DNA of 43,023 nt from positions 1-43,023 of the IMG/VR virus record IMGVR_UViG_3300030098_005123; one strand, written 5' to 3'. The notes below the pieces were generated by a model that saw only the letters and a list, made by a program, of their open reading frames with translations, was not told the DNA's origin and made no database searches. Position 1 is the stretch's first letter, and every line of letters starts with the position of its first letter. A program made the position numbers and the translations under genes. Positions 14,477 through 19,430 of this stretch are shown piece after piece. This DNA comes from a virus.

Positions 14477-14737
14477 ATGGACATACAAAAGATTGCATCG
14501 ACTGGAACAGCAGTCGCAGTTCTTGGAACTGGAACGATTGTTGGTGGAAATCATGTGATTGATAAACAAACTGGAGGACCAGAAAGAAGAGCAAAAGCAG
14601 AAGAAACTACACTACGTCAAATAGTAAGAGAAGAAATCAAGGAGGCATTAATTATTGCTTGGCCTGAATCAACTGGTGCTATCACAGGTTTGAATGAACC
14701 AAACACTGACTATCGTAATCAAGTACCTCAAAAATGA
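14477..14737 (+). CDS. small membrane-associated protein, unknown
   Basis: 86 residues. Residues about 6-27 are a Gly/Ala/Val-rich hydrophobic stretch (ASTGTAVAVLGTGTIVGG). A charged helical segment follows (RRAKAEETTLRQIVREEIKE), then a polar tail. A purine-rich AAGAGGA lies about 14 nt before the ATG. It is translated together with the next gene, whose ATG overlaps its stop (ATGA). The pair runs opposite to both neighbouring operons. I do not recognise a function; a membrane-anchored or virion-associated partner of the 300-aa protein is the natural guess. Confidence 0.7.
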   Translation: MDIQKIASTGTAVAVLGTGTIVGGNHVIDKQTGGPERRAKAEETTLRQIVREEIKEALIIAWPESTGAITGLNEPNTDYRNQVPQK

Positions 14738-15636
14738 TACCTGACATTATAGTTAACGGCATAAACGTAACCGTTAGAGAAATTCGTGATAACGATAATA
14801 TTGACATTCGTATGAATAATGTCAGAGATATTAGAGTTGTCAATAGTGGAATTAGGCAAATTGCTGATAATCGTATCTGGTTAAGACAACAACCAAATGC
14901 AATTCCACAAAATGTTCCTGTTACTACAAGAATAGGAACTCCTGTTGTTAATATGCCTGGTTGTGTCAAAGCACACAAAGAGAATGCTAAAAATCCAGCA
15001 AATAGAAATAAAATGCTGGTAGATAACGATCCTGAAGGAAATGTTGTCTTATGTGATAATGGAATGCCATATTATAATCCACCTGACTATGATTATAGAG
15101 ATTTAACTTGGAGAACTATCTATGGAGATGCACCAATAGCAGAAGGTATAGACACAGGTGATCCTCCTCCTCCACCAAACACTCCTAGCACTCCAGGTGC
15201 TCCTAGAACACCTTCTACAACAAAAGAGGATGTTCCATGCCCTCCACCCAATGCAAGGCGTGAGGGAGACTTAAATCAAGCAGGTACAGAAAAAGTAACA
15301 GGATATGAACTACAGAGAGATCCTAATAACTATGAACAATTTATTTGTGTAACCTTATGGGAAGATATTTCATTTGCAGAGCGATATTTACCCTCTGTTA
15401 ATGTTATAACAACTACAGCTGGGATTGCTGCTGTGGCAACGACATCCGCCCTACTTGCCAAACCCCTAGCAGATTTGCTCCTGAAGGTGATAAAACCTGT
15501 TGTGAAGAAAACTCTTGCGAAGGTTCAGAAGATGCTTGGGAAGAAGGAGAAGATTCTTTCTCTTCAGGAGAGGAAGTTGAAGCAGAAGGAAGCGAACGCT
15601 GCTGTGAAGGCTGCTCGTCTTCTGAAGGGAAGTTAA
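14734..15636 (+). CDS. conserved cyanophage-type protein with C-terminal hydrophobic segment and basic tail
   Basis: 300 residues. The N-terminal 60 residues are Asn/Asp/Arg-rich (NGINVTVREIRDND). Residues 143-160 are proline-rich. Residues 222-252 are hydrophobic and could span a membrane (ITTTAGIAAVATTSALLAKP). Residues 253-300 form a Lys/Glu/Gln-rich amphipathic tail. The last 224 nt overlap the 3' end of the convergent gene at 15413-16537, and codon choice changes there to AAG, GAG and CAG where the rest of the gene prefers A-ending codons. The stop is TAA at 15634-15636. Function unknown; the position beside exported proteins suggests a membrane or virion-surface role. Confidence 0.72.
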   Translation: MIPDIIVNGINVTVREIRDNDNIDIRMNNVRDIRVVNSGIRQIADNRIWLRQQPNAIPQNVPVTTRIGTPVVNMPGCVKAHKENAKNPANRNKMLVDNDPEGNVVLCDNGMPYYNPPDYDYRDLTWRTIYGDAPIAEGIDTGDPPPPPNTPSTPGAPRTPSTTKEDVPCPPPNARREGDLNQAGTEKVTGYELQRDPNNYEQFICVTLWEDISFAERYLPSVNVITTTAGIAAVATTSALLAKPLADLLLKVIKPVVKKTLAKVQKMLGKKEKILSLQERKLKQKEANAAVKAARLLKGS

Positions 15637-16537
15637 GTTGAGGTAAATCGTGTGAATGAGGTAGTATCTTACCAGGTGGTGTAACAACTACCACATCTGC
15701 ACATACACTATGGTAAGGTGATTTGGGATGGAACATAATTCCAGCCTTCATGAGTTCACCACAATTTTTGAGACGGGCTATCTCAAAATCTAACCGCTTA
15801 TTAGCAGTCAATTGCTTTTGTTGCTCTATTTGAGTAGTTGCAGCCTGTTTACACAATTTCTGTAATTTCTTATCAAGTGGTATTGATAGAGTAGCAGATA
15901 ATCCAATATTAAAATTATTATTAGCAACCATGTCAGTTCTTACTGGTTTATCCCATATCTTACTACCAGGATTATCTGGTATACCATCAGGACCATCTAC
16001 TTCTATCTCATAAGGCATATCCGCACCATCAGCATAATAACGAATTGGATCTCCATCATCATCCAACATTATACTTCCATCGGGATTTTGTTTAACACTA
16101 TTATCATACCAATTCTCTTCAATAGGTATCTTATTTCCATCATCATCTAACAAATAATCACCCATTGTACCATCAGCATTATTTGGACCTCTCTTCCACC
16201 CATCATACCAAGGATAATTCTTTACAGTGATAGTTTGAGTGGTTATTTTTCCAGTAAAATCTGTATTATCATACTGTGGTTCTAGATAAGTCCTCTCAAA
16301 AGGATCTTTCCATGAATTACTATACTGAATATATGGTGTTGCGTTAAAAGTAGAACCTTGACAAGATATCTGATTACCGTAAGTGTTAGTTACGTATGGA
16401 CCTTGTAAAACCTGAATAGCTTGGTTCGTTACTGAGCCTGAACTATTAGCTATAGGATTAGCAGTTGCTGATACTCCACCAACATTCTCTGCTAATGCAA
16501 CGGTGGGATTGACTAAACTTAGTAGTGAAGCCCCTAT
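15413..16537 (-). CDS. exported conserved protein without a canonical start codon
   Basis: The frame encodes a protein that looks conserved: a signal-type segment (GASLLSLVNPTVALA, cleavage before ENVGG), then SATANPIANSSGSVTNQAIQ and LQGPYVTNTYGNQISCQGST, and near the end NKRLDFEIARLKNCGELMKA and FHPKSPYHSVCADVVVVTPP. No ATG, GTG or TTG precedes the signal segment in frame for about 100 codons back into the neighbouring gene. The start given here is an ATA that overlaps the upstream TAG (AATAG); it is a guess. A -1 frameshift out of the upstream gene, an unusual initiator or a sequence error are alternatives. The last 75 codons are Ser/Pro/Glu-rich and antisense to the convergent gene. The frame stays open upstream to an ATG at 16849, but that part is a shadow of the neighbour. 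Confidence 0.6.
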   Translation of the reverse strand: MGASLLSLVNPTVALAENVGGVSATANPIANSSGSVTNQAIQVLQGPYVTNTYGNQISCQGSTFNATPYIQYSNSWKDPFERTYLEPQYDNTDFTGKITTQTITVKNYPWYDGWKRGPNNADGTMGDYLLDDDGNKIPIEENWYDNSVKQNPDGSIMLDDDGDPIRYYADGADMPYEIEVDGPDGIPDNPGSKIWDKPVRTDMVANNNFNIGLSATLSIPLDKKLQKLCKQAATTQIEQQKQLTANKRLDFEIARLKNCGELMKAGIMFHPKSPYHSVCADVVVVTPPGKILPHSHDLPQLNFPSEDEQPSQQRSLPSASTSSPEEKESSPSSQASSEPSQEFSSQQVLSPSGANLLGVWQVGRMSLPQQQSQL

Positions 16538-17004
16538 TGCGTAAAGGTGCTTGTTGTGTCTGTGACGCTTTTTATAGTGGTTACTCTTTGTATTATAGTT
16601 TGGTTGGTCATCCCTGGCCCAGAATAACTTTGGGTAAATTGAAATGCTCCTCCAGGATTTGATATGGTGAAACTTCCTGCACTGTCCATATCCAAAGAGT
16701 CGAACGTACTCGTCAATACGCCCGTTGCTCCGTCGCTGCTTCCGTTTGTTCCTGTTTGTGGTGTTATTGTCACCGTGGAATTGTTGACGTTGGGATTCAA
16801 CGGTTGTCCGTCGTTTTCGATCCCATGGCCAGTCACACTGTATTCCCATCCTGTCCTATAATCAATGGAATTTATGGTTTCCGTTACTGTAGATTCAGTT
16901 TCGGTATGGCTCGTCATTGAGCCCTGTTGAAAATTGGGGACCACAGGGACTGCTCTTGCAACCCCTGGAATTAATAACAAAGATAGTAGAAGAAACTTCT
17001 TCAT
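16534..17004 (-). CDS. exported cyanophage protein
   Basis: 156 residues with a clear signal peptide (MKKFLLLSLLLIPGVARA, cleavage before VPVV). The mature part begins NFQQGSMTSHTETESTVTET and ends MTNQTIIQRVTTIKSVTDTT, Thr/Ser-rich and beta-type. The start follows GAGGTAG with good spacing and lies 4 nt after the upstream stop. Codon use in the middle (about 16640-16930 on the plus strand) is markedly G+C-richer than in the neighbours, with TCG, GTC and ACG frequent. The function is unknown. It lies in a run of exported products and its stop overlaps the possible start of the next gene, so the two are probably co-translated. Confidence 0.75.
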   Translation of the reverse strand: MKKFLLLSLLLIPGVARAVPVVPNFQQGSMTSHTETESTVTETINSIDYRTGWEYSVTGHGIENDGQPLNPNVNNSTVTITPQTGTNGSSDGATGVLTSTFDSLDMDSAGSFTISNPGGAFQFTQSYSGPGMTNQTIIQRVTTIKSVTDTTSTFTQ

Positions 17005-17008
17005 ACTA

Positions 17009-17569
17009 CTACCTCACGGTCACCTCTGATACAACTTGTCCAGTAGCTGTAGTACCAGCACCGCCAGCTGTTAAAGTTATTGCTCCATCTGTCGCAATAG
17101 TACCAGCTAAGGTAGCAGCCATTCCACCAGCACTAGTTGTAGTCTGACCGAAAGTAGGTAAGTGCTCAATAGTACCAAAGTTGTTAGAACCAGCAGCATT
17201 AGTAACTTCATTGTCACTATTATATGTAACTGGATCATAGGTAATTTCAGTACCAGCAGTTAGTGCAACAGGAGCATCACCTTGGGTGAATGCTTCCGTA
17301 AGGCTAAATGCATCACCAGCTGTAGTGACAGTGTATACACCATCAGTATGTCCAGCAGCTGCAGTTGCAGTTGCAGCAGTCAATCCACCCATAGTACCAG
17401 CAGTAATATTACTACCCTGCACACTGTAAGTTGAACCAATTCTAGTTGCAGCTGAAGCTGCAGCATCAACTGTCAACTGAGTACTAGCAGAGATACGATG
17501 AACAATATCTGCTCTTGCACCAGTAGCACCCAAAAATAATAATGAAGTAATCAATAAGATTTTCTTCAT
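17009..17569 (-). CDS. exported Ala/Thr/Gly-rich protein
   Basis: 186 residues. The signal peptide is MKKILLITSLLFLGATGARA, with cleavage before DIV. The mature chain is low in charge and very rich in Ala, Thr, Gly and Ser (TAATATAAAGHTDGVYTVTT, AGGMAATLAGTIATDGAITL), consistent with a repetitive beta structure on a surface. It has no Cys. It is first in a run of at least two, probably three, consecutively exported products. There is no clear late octamer upstream; the 55-nt gap to the preceding small gene holds only AT-rich sequence. Function unknown; it may be delivered to the cell envelope or assembled on the virion. Confidence 0.72.
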   Translation of the reverse strand: MKKILLITSLLFLGATGARADIVHRISASTQLTVDAAASAATRIGSTYSVQGSNITAGTMGGLTAATATAAAGHTDGVYTVTTAGDAFSLTEAFTQGDAPVALTAGTEITYDPVTYNSDNEVTNAAGSNNFGTIEHLPTFGQTTTSAGGMAATLAGTIATDGAITLTAGGAGTTATGQVVSEVTVR

Positions 17570-17624
17570 TTTAAGATATACGCTTATGCTTAATATATAG
17601 GAACTTTTACTCTTGAAGAGAATA

Positions 17625-17768
17625 TTAAGTTAAATCTACTTTTCTTAATTTTTCAAAATATGTCGTTTCTAGTGGTTTTTGAGACTTTATAAAATTACCA
17701 TCTTTTATTTCATACCCGTAGTATTTGCATATTTCCAAATAAAAGTCAGAATACTTATCTTCAGTCAT
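17625..17768 (-). CDS. 47-aa protein preceded by a shared leader element
   Basis: Read directly: ATG at 17768, TAA at 17625-17627. The protein begins MTEDKYSDFYLEICKYYGYE and ends FEKLRKVDLT; it is rich in Tyr, Lys and Glu and soluble in appearance. There is no Shine-Dalgarno sequence; instead the 45 nt upstream match, block for block, the sequence before the 53-aa gene at 36846-37007. Coding status is supported by that shared upstream element, sensible composition and fit within an otherwise empty 277-nt gap. Function unknown. Confidence 0.6.
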   Translation of the reverse strand: MTEDKYSDFYLEICKYYGYEIKDGNFIKSQKPLETTYFEKLRKVDLT

Positions 17769-17772
17769 TTGT

Positions 17773-17811
17773 AAAAAAGTAATAGGGCAAAAAATACTCA
17801 GAATTTTTTTT
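17773..17811 (-). promoter_or_regulatory. two-block leader element, copy A (possible middle promoter)
   Basis: On the minus strand AAAAAAAATTCTG, 13 nt, then CTATTACTTTTTT, ending 4 nt before the ATG at 17768. Both 13-mers and the 13-nt spacing are identical in copy B at 37011-37049. If TATTAC acts as a -10 hexamer, the upstream block falls near -30, where T4 middle promoters have the MotA box. Confidence 0.5.
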
Positions 17812-17846
17812 CGGGCTTTTATGGAATCAAAAGCTAAAATAATATA

Positions 17847-18245
17847 TCAGCCCCCATCTATGGCACATCCTATCATGGAACCACCAATGATACCAGCAGG
17901 TATTGCCCACCATCTATCCTTACCACGTGAACCAAACCCTGCTAGTCCACCACCAAGCAATCCACCTGCTACTGTACCTTCAGAACAATCATTGGTGTCT
18001 ACATTCTCATAGACAGTAACATGTCTACGATATGTTCTACCCTCTGCTACATCATCATTACATGGAACTTCTAAGGTTTCATTCCATGATTTTACATAAC
18101 CAGGATCATTAGCAGTGCCAGGTACATATTCTTCTCGATACTCTGTCTTAAAACAGGTACGACTAGAAGAATATCCTGGTTGATAATCTGCTATTGCAGG
18201 AGTGCAGGAACCAAGGGCAATAAGGGTAGCAAGTGCAATTTTCAT
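17847..18245 (-). CDS. exported glycine-zipper protein
   Basis: 132 residues. The signal sequence is MKIALATLIALGSCTPAIA, with cleavage before DYQ; LGSC could alternatively act as a lipobox. The central part has the conserved-looking Cys residues at 31, 62 and 87 (RTCFKTEYREEY, LEVPCNDD). The C-terminus is a glycine zipper (TVAGGLLGGGLAGFGSRGKD, then AIPAGIIGGSMIGCAID), as in outer-membrane or periplasmic lipoproteins and membrane-inserting proteins. Its ATG overlaps the TGA of the gene before it. The export and zipper features are visible; what it does in an infected cell is unknown. Confidence 0.75.
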   Translation of the reverse strand: MKIALATLIALGSCTPAIADYQPGYSSSRTCFKTEYREEYVPGTANDPGYVKSWNETLEVPCNDDVAEGRTYRRHVTVYENVDTNDCSEGTVAGGLLGGGLAGFGSRGKDRWWAIPAGIIGGSMIGCAIDGG

Positions 18246-18433
18246 GATTTAGAAACAGTTGGTTCGGTGTAAACTAATTCGTCATTCAATAATGAACGAC
18301 ACAAATTTAGAACATCTATGAATTGATCAGTGGTTTCACATGTGACAGTCTTAGTTTCACCGTCACTACTATAAAGATAGAAGGTACGTGAAGTGGTATC
18401 AACCACACATCTAGTTAACCAAGCATCATCCAA
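18242..18433 (-). CDS. small conserved-looking cyanophage protein, unknown
   Basis: 63 residues from a TTG at 18433, chosen because GGAGG lies 9 nt upstream and the overlap with the previous gene is then only 8 nt. An in-frame ATG at 18454 or 18466 would add 7 or 11 residues but has no good ribosome site. The sequence (DDAWLTRCVVDTTSRTFYLY, SSDGETKTVTCETTDQFIDV) is compact and beta/alpha-like with two Cys. No known domain is recognised. It overlaps the next gene by ATGA and so belongs to the same transcript as the glycine-zipper protein. Confidence 0.65.
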   Translation of the reverse strand: MDDAWLTRCVVDTTSRTFYLYSSDGETKTVTCETTDQFIDVLNLCRSLLNDELVYTEPTVSKS

Positions 18434-18641
18434 GTTCTTCAGCCTCCACAACATAGAAACAATCAATATTATTTCCTGAATTAGATCTTACCTCAATATA
18501 TTTTCCATAATTAATTGAACTAACATATAGTTCCTGCCACACCCTATGAGGTGTGAGATGAACCACAATTGATTCTGGATTCACTTCTTCAGGAATTACA
18601 ATGCGGTTTCCAACTTTTAAACGTCCAGTGAGTTTCATCAT
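18426..18641 (-). CDS. stand-alone copy of the C-terminal module of the 254-aa fibre-type protein
   Basis: 71 residues that align along their whole length with residues about 148-218 of the protein at 18666-19430. Matching landmarks are GRLKVGNRIVIP against GRLRNKKEITLP, PESIVVHLTP against VESISVQLQP, and SGNNIDCFYVVEAE against GGLPIDCFYHVYAE. It is therefore an orphan domain, probably from duplication of the neighbour. It has a strong sigma70-type promoter immediately upstream, unlike the surrounding late genes. It might cap, chaperone or compete with the full-length protein; this is inference. Confidence 0.7.
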   Translation of the reverse strand: MMKLTGRLKVGNRIVIPEEVNPESIVVHLTPHRVWQELYVSSINYGKYIEVRSNSGNNIDCFYVVEAEELG

Positions 18642-18659: not shown

Positions 18660-18688
18660 ATTATATCACTTTGTCTTCGTATTGACAA
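18660..18688 (-). promoter_or_regulatory. sigma70-type promoter TTGTCA-N17-TATAAT
   Basis: Minus-strand -35 TTGTCA (18688-18683), 17-nt spacer, perfect -10 TATAAT (18665-18660). The -10 begins at the stop codon of the 254-aa gene; the ATG at 18641 lies 18 nt further on, so the leader would be only about 10-12 nt. It would allow expression by unmodified host polymerase. Confidence 0.6.
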
Positions 18689-19430
18689 CCCCTTGGTACT
18701 GAGGATCATCATAGTACTTGCTATCAGGGTAATCTTGCCAACTGGCACCTTGATACTCTGTAATAAGAGCATTCACATCCTTCCTCTCTGCGTACACATG
18801 ATAGAAGCAATCGATAGGCAATCCACCATTAGACTGAAGATATATCTTCTCAGCATCCCATCTCTTTATGATGATGTCCTGATGAGCACCGATAGGTTGC
18901 AACTGCACTGAAATACTCTCTACATGCACCAAATCTTTCCAATAATTTGGTAGAGTGATTTCTTTCTTGTTCCTCAGTCTACCTCTATAGTAAACACCAA
19001 CCTCAGGGCCCTCAATACATGCGTATCTTAAACGATGTCCCTCACCCTTCGATGGATGAACCATATCAAATGGTTTAGGTCTGCCGTCTGCTGTATCAAA
19101 TCTTGCTTGAAGATCACCGATATCACCAAAATCAAAGAAAGCATTACCGCCTACCTTCAAAACATAATCAGCATCACCATTGATTAAAGCGTTACCCTCA
19201 ACATGCATTGCTCTATCAGATTTCTGATGATGACTAGGTGCTACCATAAGAGTAGCCTCTCCTTTATCAAATGCTTCTGCACCAATATGAACCAGTCCAG
19301 ATACATCTACACTACCATGTGCCAGTTCATTACCTGCACCAATAGCTTTCTGTTGACATGGTTTTTGTGCTGTGCCACCACCCACCACGAGGTCTTTTAA
19401 GATTAAAGAACTATCAATAATGTTTGACAT
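18666..19430 (-). CDS. fibre/spike-type structural protein with conserved LEGPE-like motif
   Basis: 254 residues. The N-terminal half has short beta-type repeats (VDVSGLVHIGAEAF, AMHVEGNALINGDADYVLKV). The motif HPSKGEGHRLRYACIEGPEV followed by GVYYRGRL at about 125-151 is a signature of C-terminal regions of many marine-phage fibre and structural proteins. The remaining 100 residues form a compact beta module duplicated in the next gene. It lies directly downstream of the spike-like gene at 19436, on the same strand as the hub genes, so a tail-tip or short-fibre component is likely. Confidence 0.75.
   Translation of the reverse strand: MSNIIDSSLILKDLVVGGGTAQKPCQQKAIGAGNELAHGSVDVSGLVHIGAEAFDKGEATLMVAPSHHQKSDRAMHVEGNALINGDADYVLKVGGNAFFDFGDIGDLQARFDTADGRPKPFDMVHPSKGEGHRLRYACIEGPEVGVYYRGRLRNKKEITLPNYWKDLVHVESISVQLQPIGAHQDIIIKRWDAEKIYLQSNGGLPIDCFYHVYAERKDVNALITEYQGASWQDYPDSKYYDDPQYQGVVNTKTK

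Follow-up and report, generated by a model that had tools for sequence, protein, structure and literature searches.

A cyanophage gene cassette with an overlap at both ends of gp165 and a possible role in envelope disruption at lysis

The gp164-gp167 locus

This work concerns a cassette of four genes, gp164 to gp167, in a 43-kb stretch of viral DNA (IMG/VR record IMGVR_UViG_3300030098_005123; the whole stretch is called the window below), which is a fragment of a T4-like cyanophage. An earlier sequence-only reading of the window had described an island of exported and membrane-type proteins at 14477-18641, and the open reading frames (ORFs) of this island were found again here. In phage Syn9, gp164, gp165, gp166 and gp167 correspond to T4-GC234, 235, 236 and 237 in the scheme of Sullivan et al. 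(2010). The cassette and its overlaps are laid out in the window as follows.

14734..15636, plus strand: gp164, 300 aa (phrog_570, T4-GC234 type), with a C-terminal transmembrane (TM) helix and a basic tail
15413..16849, minus strand: gp165, 478 aa (phrog_848, T4-GC235 type), with a basic leader, a signal-peptide core and a conserved exported domain (GGVSATANPIANSSGSVTNQAIQVLQGPY...; NKRLDFEIARLKNCGEL)
16534..16849, minus strand: same-strand overlap, gp165 leader (-1 frame) within gp166; start ATG at 16849-16847
16490..16546, minus strand: hydrophobic signal core of gp165 and cleavage-like A-x-A (LYAIGASLLSLVNPTVALA)
15413..15636, minus strand: antisense overlap of 224 nt between the 3' end of gp165 and the 3' end of gp164
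16534..17004, minus strand: gp166 (phrog_650, Pfam DUF6322, T4-GC236 type), signal peptide and exported domain
17009..17569, minus strand: gp167 (phrog_564, T4-GC237 type), signal peptide; tandem paralogue of gp166

PHROGs and Pfam placed the cassette genes solely in families of unknown function, and the view of an envelope-directed set that is of a conserved type in cyanophages, with no job assigned to it, was upheld. The tandem genes gp166 and gp167 matched each other as paralogues with an hhalign probability of 96.6%, and four cysteines of gp164 were invariant in a five-sequence alignment. Every cassette member has a predicted export or TM signal. The hydrophobic segments claimed for two plus-strand genes were found at residues 224-242 of gp164, near its C-terminus (Kyte-Doolittle value (KD) 1.64), and at residues 6-24 of the protein encoded at 14477-14737 (KD 1.33). 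Likewise, the products of 16534-17004, 17009-17569 and 17847-18245 each begin with a signal sequence of the classical n/h/c type, as had been proposed.

Dual coding at both ends of gp165

Our results revealed that gp165 is dual-coding at both its 5' end and its 3' end. The sequence-only reading had placed an atypical gene at 15413-16537 and had not noticed that the genes overlap; its start for gp165 proved to be wrong. No ATG, GTG or TTG occurs in the window at a normal distance ahead of the hydrophobic segment. Since the ATG at 16849 is the only in-frame start and none lies nearer to the signal segment, the coding sequence was set at 15413-16849, beginning inside gp166 in the -1 frame. The non-canonical ATA at 16537 was rejected as a start, because the basic n-region would be lost and the dual coding reaches further upstream. 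Most other loci also have no ATG, GTG or TTG at normal spacing before the signal core; some have starts within or after it.

The overlap was surveyed in 161 loci, to which six records with a core match were added. In 161/161 loci the gp165 frame was -1 relative to gp166 and was open for 178-400 nt (median 268) upstream of the gp166 stop, and no gp165 locus in which the two genes could be located was without the 5' overlap. Two start positions were recognised. The P-type start, found in 75 loci including the window, P-SSM2 and P-SSM7, is an ATG 289-322 nt before the gp166 stop, with the context ACAGGATGG in all cases printed and no clear Shine-Dalgarno sequence. The S-type start, found in 77 loci including S-CAM22 and Syn9, is an ATG about 163 nt before that stop, and in S-CAM22, Syn9 and P-SSM4 a GGAG-type sequence lies upstream of it. 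At most loci the open -1 frame starts just upstream of the respective ATG.

The number of stops to be expected was obtained by fixing the gp166 protein and redrawing synonymous codons in 2000 randomisations. Over 313 nt of the window, the -1 frame had 0 stops vs 8.5 expected, and 0/2000 draws were open; the +1 control frame behaved as expected (9 stops vs 7.4). Synonymous conservation of gp166 at P-type loci was about 1.0 of expectation upstream and jumped to 1.6 at the ATG, and at S-type loci it rose from 1.0-1.4 upstream to 2.0 around the S-type ATG. Within the overlap, the identity of the -1 peptide was 0.555 vs 0.470 in simulation for the P-type and 0.587 vs 0.464 for the S-type, whereas the upstream controls gave 0.473 vs 0.516 and 0.520 vs 0.489, respectively; because the compared pairs are phylogenetically non-independent, these constraint and identity figures are strong indications and not formal p-values. 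The second frame at gp165 is therefore both open and constrained beyond the demands of the first, which is what overprinting means.

It could be argued that the overlap is an annotation artefact, with gp165 starting near its signal core at a non-canonical codon or by -1 frameshifting from gp166, and with the upstream frame open for other reasons. A leader of 50 to 101 residues ahead of a signal core is indeed unusual, and so is consistent with this explanation, as is the P-type start without a clear Shine-Dalgarno sequence. However, the two lineages differ in the ATG at which synonymous constraint goes up (about -313 and -163 nt before the gp166 stop), at most loci the open frame has its upstream limit just ahead of the respective ATG, and the excess of -1 peptide identity over simulation is larger in the overlap than in the upstream controls. 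The GGAG-type sequence ahead of the -163 start also speaks for true initiation there. A gp166-gp165 fusion by -1 frameshifting was disfavoured as well: inspection of the junction by eye showed no slippery heptamer, and it is at the start codons that the constraint sets in. We regard an artefact as the least probable of the alternatives considered in this work.

The leader of gp165 is net-basic, with about 50 aa in the S-type and about 100 in the P-type, and the hydrophobic core spans 11 residues. In the window, a basic leader of 101 residues is followed by the hydrophobic segment at 102-120 and then by the cleavage-like A-x-A. A small-x-small motif directly precedes the conserved mature start GGVSATA, and a loose -3/-1 pattern fitted 151/151 sequences. 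The freshwater phage DSL-LC02 has a short leader (MDRSNYRTTVYHK...), which shows that gp165 can do without a long one.

At its other end, gp165 runs antisense to gp164, and the 224 nt shared in the window contained 0 stops vs about 5 expected. The phase of this antisense overlap was identical in 146/146 loci with 30-400 nt of overlap. It is not universal: gp164 and gp165 share just 4 nt in P-HM1 (L180), and P-SSM4 (L179), where gp164 is inverted, is a natural variant without it. The start of gp165 was mis-called in some database records, for example in P-SSM2 and P-SSM4. In the P-SSM7 record (L007, 5540-6001), gp166 is present and open yet unannotated, and the overlapping gp165 is annotated with the long start.

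Gene order and relatives among cyanophages

Searches with three different gp165 queries reached 430, 435 and 449 phage records, by name nearly all cyanophages. Where a contig had an informative flank, the cassette mostly sits between regA/gp62 and hsp20/gp43; the window and a few relatives (L009, L012 and L031) have it beside the hub gene instead. The cassette has moved as a block, and the hub-adjacent site is a relocation. Thus the position between virion modules described by the sequence-only reading is true of the window, whereas the usual site runs from regA to hsp20/gp43. A host origin was rejected: 84,980 bacterial and archaeal genomes gave 8 relatives, all on contigs that looked phage-derived by their size or by their origin from metagenome-assembled or single-amplified genomes (MAG/SAG). 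A cyanophage-like 188-kb contig of phage-genome length in an isolate assembly of Nonlabens xiamenensis (L171) holds the cassette and is probably contamination.

Relatives of the cassette were also found in T7-like cyanophages. The Syn9 gp165 query reached P-SSP7 and P-SSP10, and P-SSP7 gene 45 used as a query reached other cyanopodoviruses. P-SSP7 genes 42-45 comprise, in order, a gp164-like gene, a DUF6450 gene with two predicted TM helices, a gp166 relative (phrog_650) and a gp165 relative (phrog_1755/848). The DUF6450 protein (PSSP7_043; two TMHMM helices according to the record annotation) lies here within the cassette. PSSP7_042 (phrog_9426) is shorter than gp164 and was assigned to it by its C-terminal TM tail and position only; tblastn between the two gave no match either way. 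In P-SSP7, P-SSP10, S-RIP1, 9515-10a, S-TIP37 and DSL-LC02 the gp165 frame was again -1 to gp166, and the same-strand overlap of 61-205 nt contained 0 stops vs 2.3-6.3 expected. The cassette of T7-like cyanophages is located between the tail-fibre genes and terminase, beside the DUF6450 protein. In T7, the interval from tail fibre to terminase carries the holin, small terminase and spanin genes.

In T4-like cyanophages, DUF6450 (T4-GC218) sits downstream of regA. It was present in 10/10 records with gp165 and in 0/7 without (gp165 in three of the ten having been established by separate searches), a distribution expected once in 19,448 under random assignment, relatedness ignored. GC218, gp162 and GC219 are three more small TM-containing genes upstream of gp164 in T4-like cyanophages (L001, 6448-7743); none of them had a relative in the 43-kb window.

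Some cyanophages do without the cassette. The block gp162-GC218-GC219-gp164-gp167 was not found in S-PM2 and S-SZBM1, where the S-PM2 search was by tblastn over 61-159 kb and, for gp165 and DUF6450, over the whole record. hsp20 directly follows regA in S-PM2, and one other gene follows it in S-SZBM1. Sullivan et al. (2010) report that S-PM2 is without nine genes present in the 15 other cyanophages, eight of the nine being hypothetical. An RlpA-like DPBB protein was found in 7/7 tested cassette-less phages (for example S-PM2p160 at L181:7439-7801 and S-SZBM1_29 at L190:9327-9629) vs 1/10 cassette carriers, DSL-LC03 being the exception to mutual exclusion. Since most of the cassette-less phages were picked for having RlpA, this exclusion is only suggestive and serves as a lead. 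The RlpA-like proteins of estuarine and freshwater cyanophages and S-PM2 resemble the cassette products in being exported or envelope-acting phage proteins, but they are unrelated in sequence and belong to a lytic-transglycosylase family.

The remaining genes of the island are as follows.

14477..14737, plus strand: small accessory protein, 86 aa (phrog_22018, GC231-like), with one weakly hydrophobic N-terminal segment
17847..18245, minus strand: neighbour outside the cassette (phrog_767), a signal-peptide and glycine-zipper-like protein
18242..18641, minus strand: two neighbours outside the cassette, neither with an export signal; one is a DUF7294 protein, the other a small protein that has a domain in common with 18666-19430

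The gene at 14477-14737 was present in 46/161 loci. The phrog_767 gene gave a weak glycine-zipper match, and in P-SSM4 its relative adjoins gp32, away from the cassette; we therefore count it, along with the two small genes upstream, among the neighbours and not among the cassette members. The products of the latter two (18242-18466 and 18426-18641) showed no signal or TM segment. The sequence-only reading had taken such neighbours for part of the set. Many cyanophage annotations name PHROG 767 as cAMP phosphodiesterase, which looks wrong for a signal-peptide protein. The 71-aa ORF at 18426-18641 matches the same families (phrog_17490/28536) as does the 254-aa protein at 18666-19430 in its C-terminal half, and so the ORF looks like a partial tandem copy.

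Proposed envelope disruption at lysis and competing explanations

In 100/134 loci, the gp167 start has a T4-late-type NTAAATA box no more than 110 nt away, where 0.045 per locus is expected by chance. Together with location, export signals and co-occurrence, this box is the basis on which we infer a lysis job; localisation and assembly are likewise inferred. Our preferred reading, to which we assign a probability of about 0.45, is that gp164-gp167 and a DUF6450 protein encoded elsewhere in carriers form a late, cyanophage-specific, envelope-directed unit, most likely for envelope disruption at lysis. Somewhat more tentatively, marine T4-like and T7-like cyanophages may share a spanin-independent envelope-disruption cassette (the DUF6450 2-TM protein, gp164, gp165, gp166 and often gp167), in which gp165 would be overprinted in part, with its leader and signal region read from gp166 in the -1 frame and, for most T4-like members, the tail antisense to gp164. 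Holins of class II topology are small proteins with two TM helices, encoded in or near the lysis cassette; in such a system, the DUF6450 protein would act as a holin or holin partner, and gp164 would be held in the inner membrane through its C-terminal helix. gp165, gp166 and gp167 would be exported via Sec; gp166 and gp167 may then assemble at the outer membrane, with gp165, which has a long predicted helix in its domain, as the connector. The cassette would thus do the outer-membrane or envelope disruption that spanins do in other phages. The start of gp165 inside gp166 in the -1 frame suggests that expression coupling is written into the DNA.

The lysis reading draws on published work on spanins. 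In their survey, Kongari et al. (2018; PMC6139136) recorded no spanin for P-SSP7, P-HM1/2, P-RSM4, P-SSM2/4/7, Syn1, Syn33, S-RSM4, S-ShM2, S-SM1/2, S-SSM5/7, Syn19, Syn5, Syn9 and S-PM2, suggested that the outer membrane of cyanophage hosts may be fragile, and stressed that lysis genes are hidden by gene overlaps and by wrong starts. Many phages of this list carry the cassette, and on that account we propose it as the envelope-disruption step. Like the two-component spanins (lambda Rz/Rz1, T7 18.5/18.7), it has an envelope-directed late pair encoded by out-of-frame overlapping genes, and in T7-like cyanophages it occupies the same genome interval as in T7. Spanin genes may be adjacent, embedded, overlapped or separated, and gp166/gp165 were overlapped in the 161 loci and six records. 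However, the cassette is not a spanin by membership, having neither lipobox nor homology. Unlike two-component spanins, it shows no i-spanin with an N-terminal anchor, judged by the usual signature, and no sequence match; it has three or four components and an additional antisense overlap, and its same-strand overlap is -1, whereas that of lambda Rz/Rz1 is +1. In the window, gp164 has a C-terminal TM helix and neither an N-terminal signal nor a lipobox, so it does not look like a unimolecular spanin. gp165 has a hydrophobic segment and later a long predicted helix (residues 327-368, low-confidence model), but also a conserved cleavage-like site.

Several observations weigh against the lysis reading. 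A lipobox-like motif occurred in only 1/151 gp165 and 2/153 gp166 signal regions, and the window gp167 signal contains no cysteine; without a lipobox there is no canonical o-spanin. The box at -30 in the window is a mere variant (CCTATATATT), and the 43-kb window fragment holds no DUF6450 relative. None of the T4-like genomes seen has the cassette adjacent to an endolysin. S-PM2, which is without the cassette and is also listed as spanin-less (PMC6139136), still lyses. The structure models of gp165 and gp166 are of low confidence (mean pLDDT 48.5 and 58.8), no PDB match below E 0.001 was obtained for the gp165 model, and the sequence profiles of both proteins gave no convincing match to known structure. 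The low-confidence model of gp166 suggests beta strands. A match of gp166 to designed WRAP-T proteins in the sequence search of solved structures reflected composition only and was rejected as chance.

The sequence-only reading had left four options: envelope modification, exclusion, release, or virion parts folded in the periplasm. Release in the form of lysis fits best, given the late-type promoter, the T7 lysis interval, the 2-TM link and the published absence of spanins. It is possible, though unlikely, that the exported proteins alter the surface of the infected cell late, for superinfection exclusion, receptor masking or protection from debris, and not for lysis. Signal peptides with conserved mature domains are compatible with this, as is the confinement of the cassette to cyanophages, its bacterial homologues being solely on phage-derived-looking contigs. 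So is its absence from S-PM2 and S-SZBM1, which indicates that it is dispensable for some cyanophages. However, exclusion would not need a late-type promoter, the T7 lysis interval in podoviruses or the strict tie to the 2-TM protein, and exclusion factors usually act early.

A role of the products as virion parts, or as assembly factors that fold in the periplasm, is less likely still and has little in its favour. The late-type promoter would suit it, the window lineage has the cassette between fibre and hub genes, and the T/S-rich, possibly beta-rich sequences are similar to appendage proteins. However, phage assembly is cytoplasmic, and most genomes place the cassette among replication genes and not virion genes. 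In addition, the resolved virion of P-SCSP1u is described as gp16, gp19, gp22, gp23 and gp28 (PMC10575957); the cassette relatives of this phage, genes 31 and 32, are absent from the described set and so are not among the resolved parts. The virion proteome of S-SZBM1 (PMC9146016) is uninformative here, as this phage has no cassette genes. For the cyanophage core, Sullivan et al. (2010) name no virion proteins other than T4-GC15 and T4-GC190, and among the clusters present in 15/16 genomes they give one.

The gene families themselves were already known as hypotheticals. T4-GC234, 235, 236, 237 and 218 (Sullivan et al., 2010), phrog_570, 848, 650 and 564, DUF6322 and DUF6450 denote the same genes, orthologous and syntenic; as clusters they were hitherto unassigned, and their overlap and behaviour as a unit went unremarked in the limited open-access literature searched. 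Nor did that literature contain the dual-coding evidence, the corrected starts, a cassette common to T4-like and T7-like cyanophages, or the lysis hypothesis. From its sequences, the cassette would be classed as an overlapping-gene, envelope-acting late cassette outside any named functional family. gp165 provides a clear case in large double-stranded DNA phages of a sequence shared with both neighbours, one per strand, and kept across wide divergence, and it follows that some database starts for its family are wrong. The cassette also offers a concrete gene set for knock-outs in cyanophages of both morphotypes. Most marine cyanobacterial viruses carry it, and it is a good candidate for their outer-membrane-breaking machinery at lysis; if this is true, it would supply the missing last lysis step for the viruses of the abundant marine cyanobacteria Prochlorococcus and Synechococcus.

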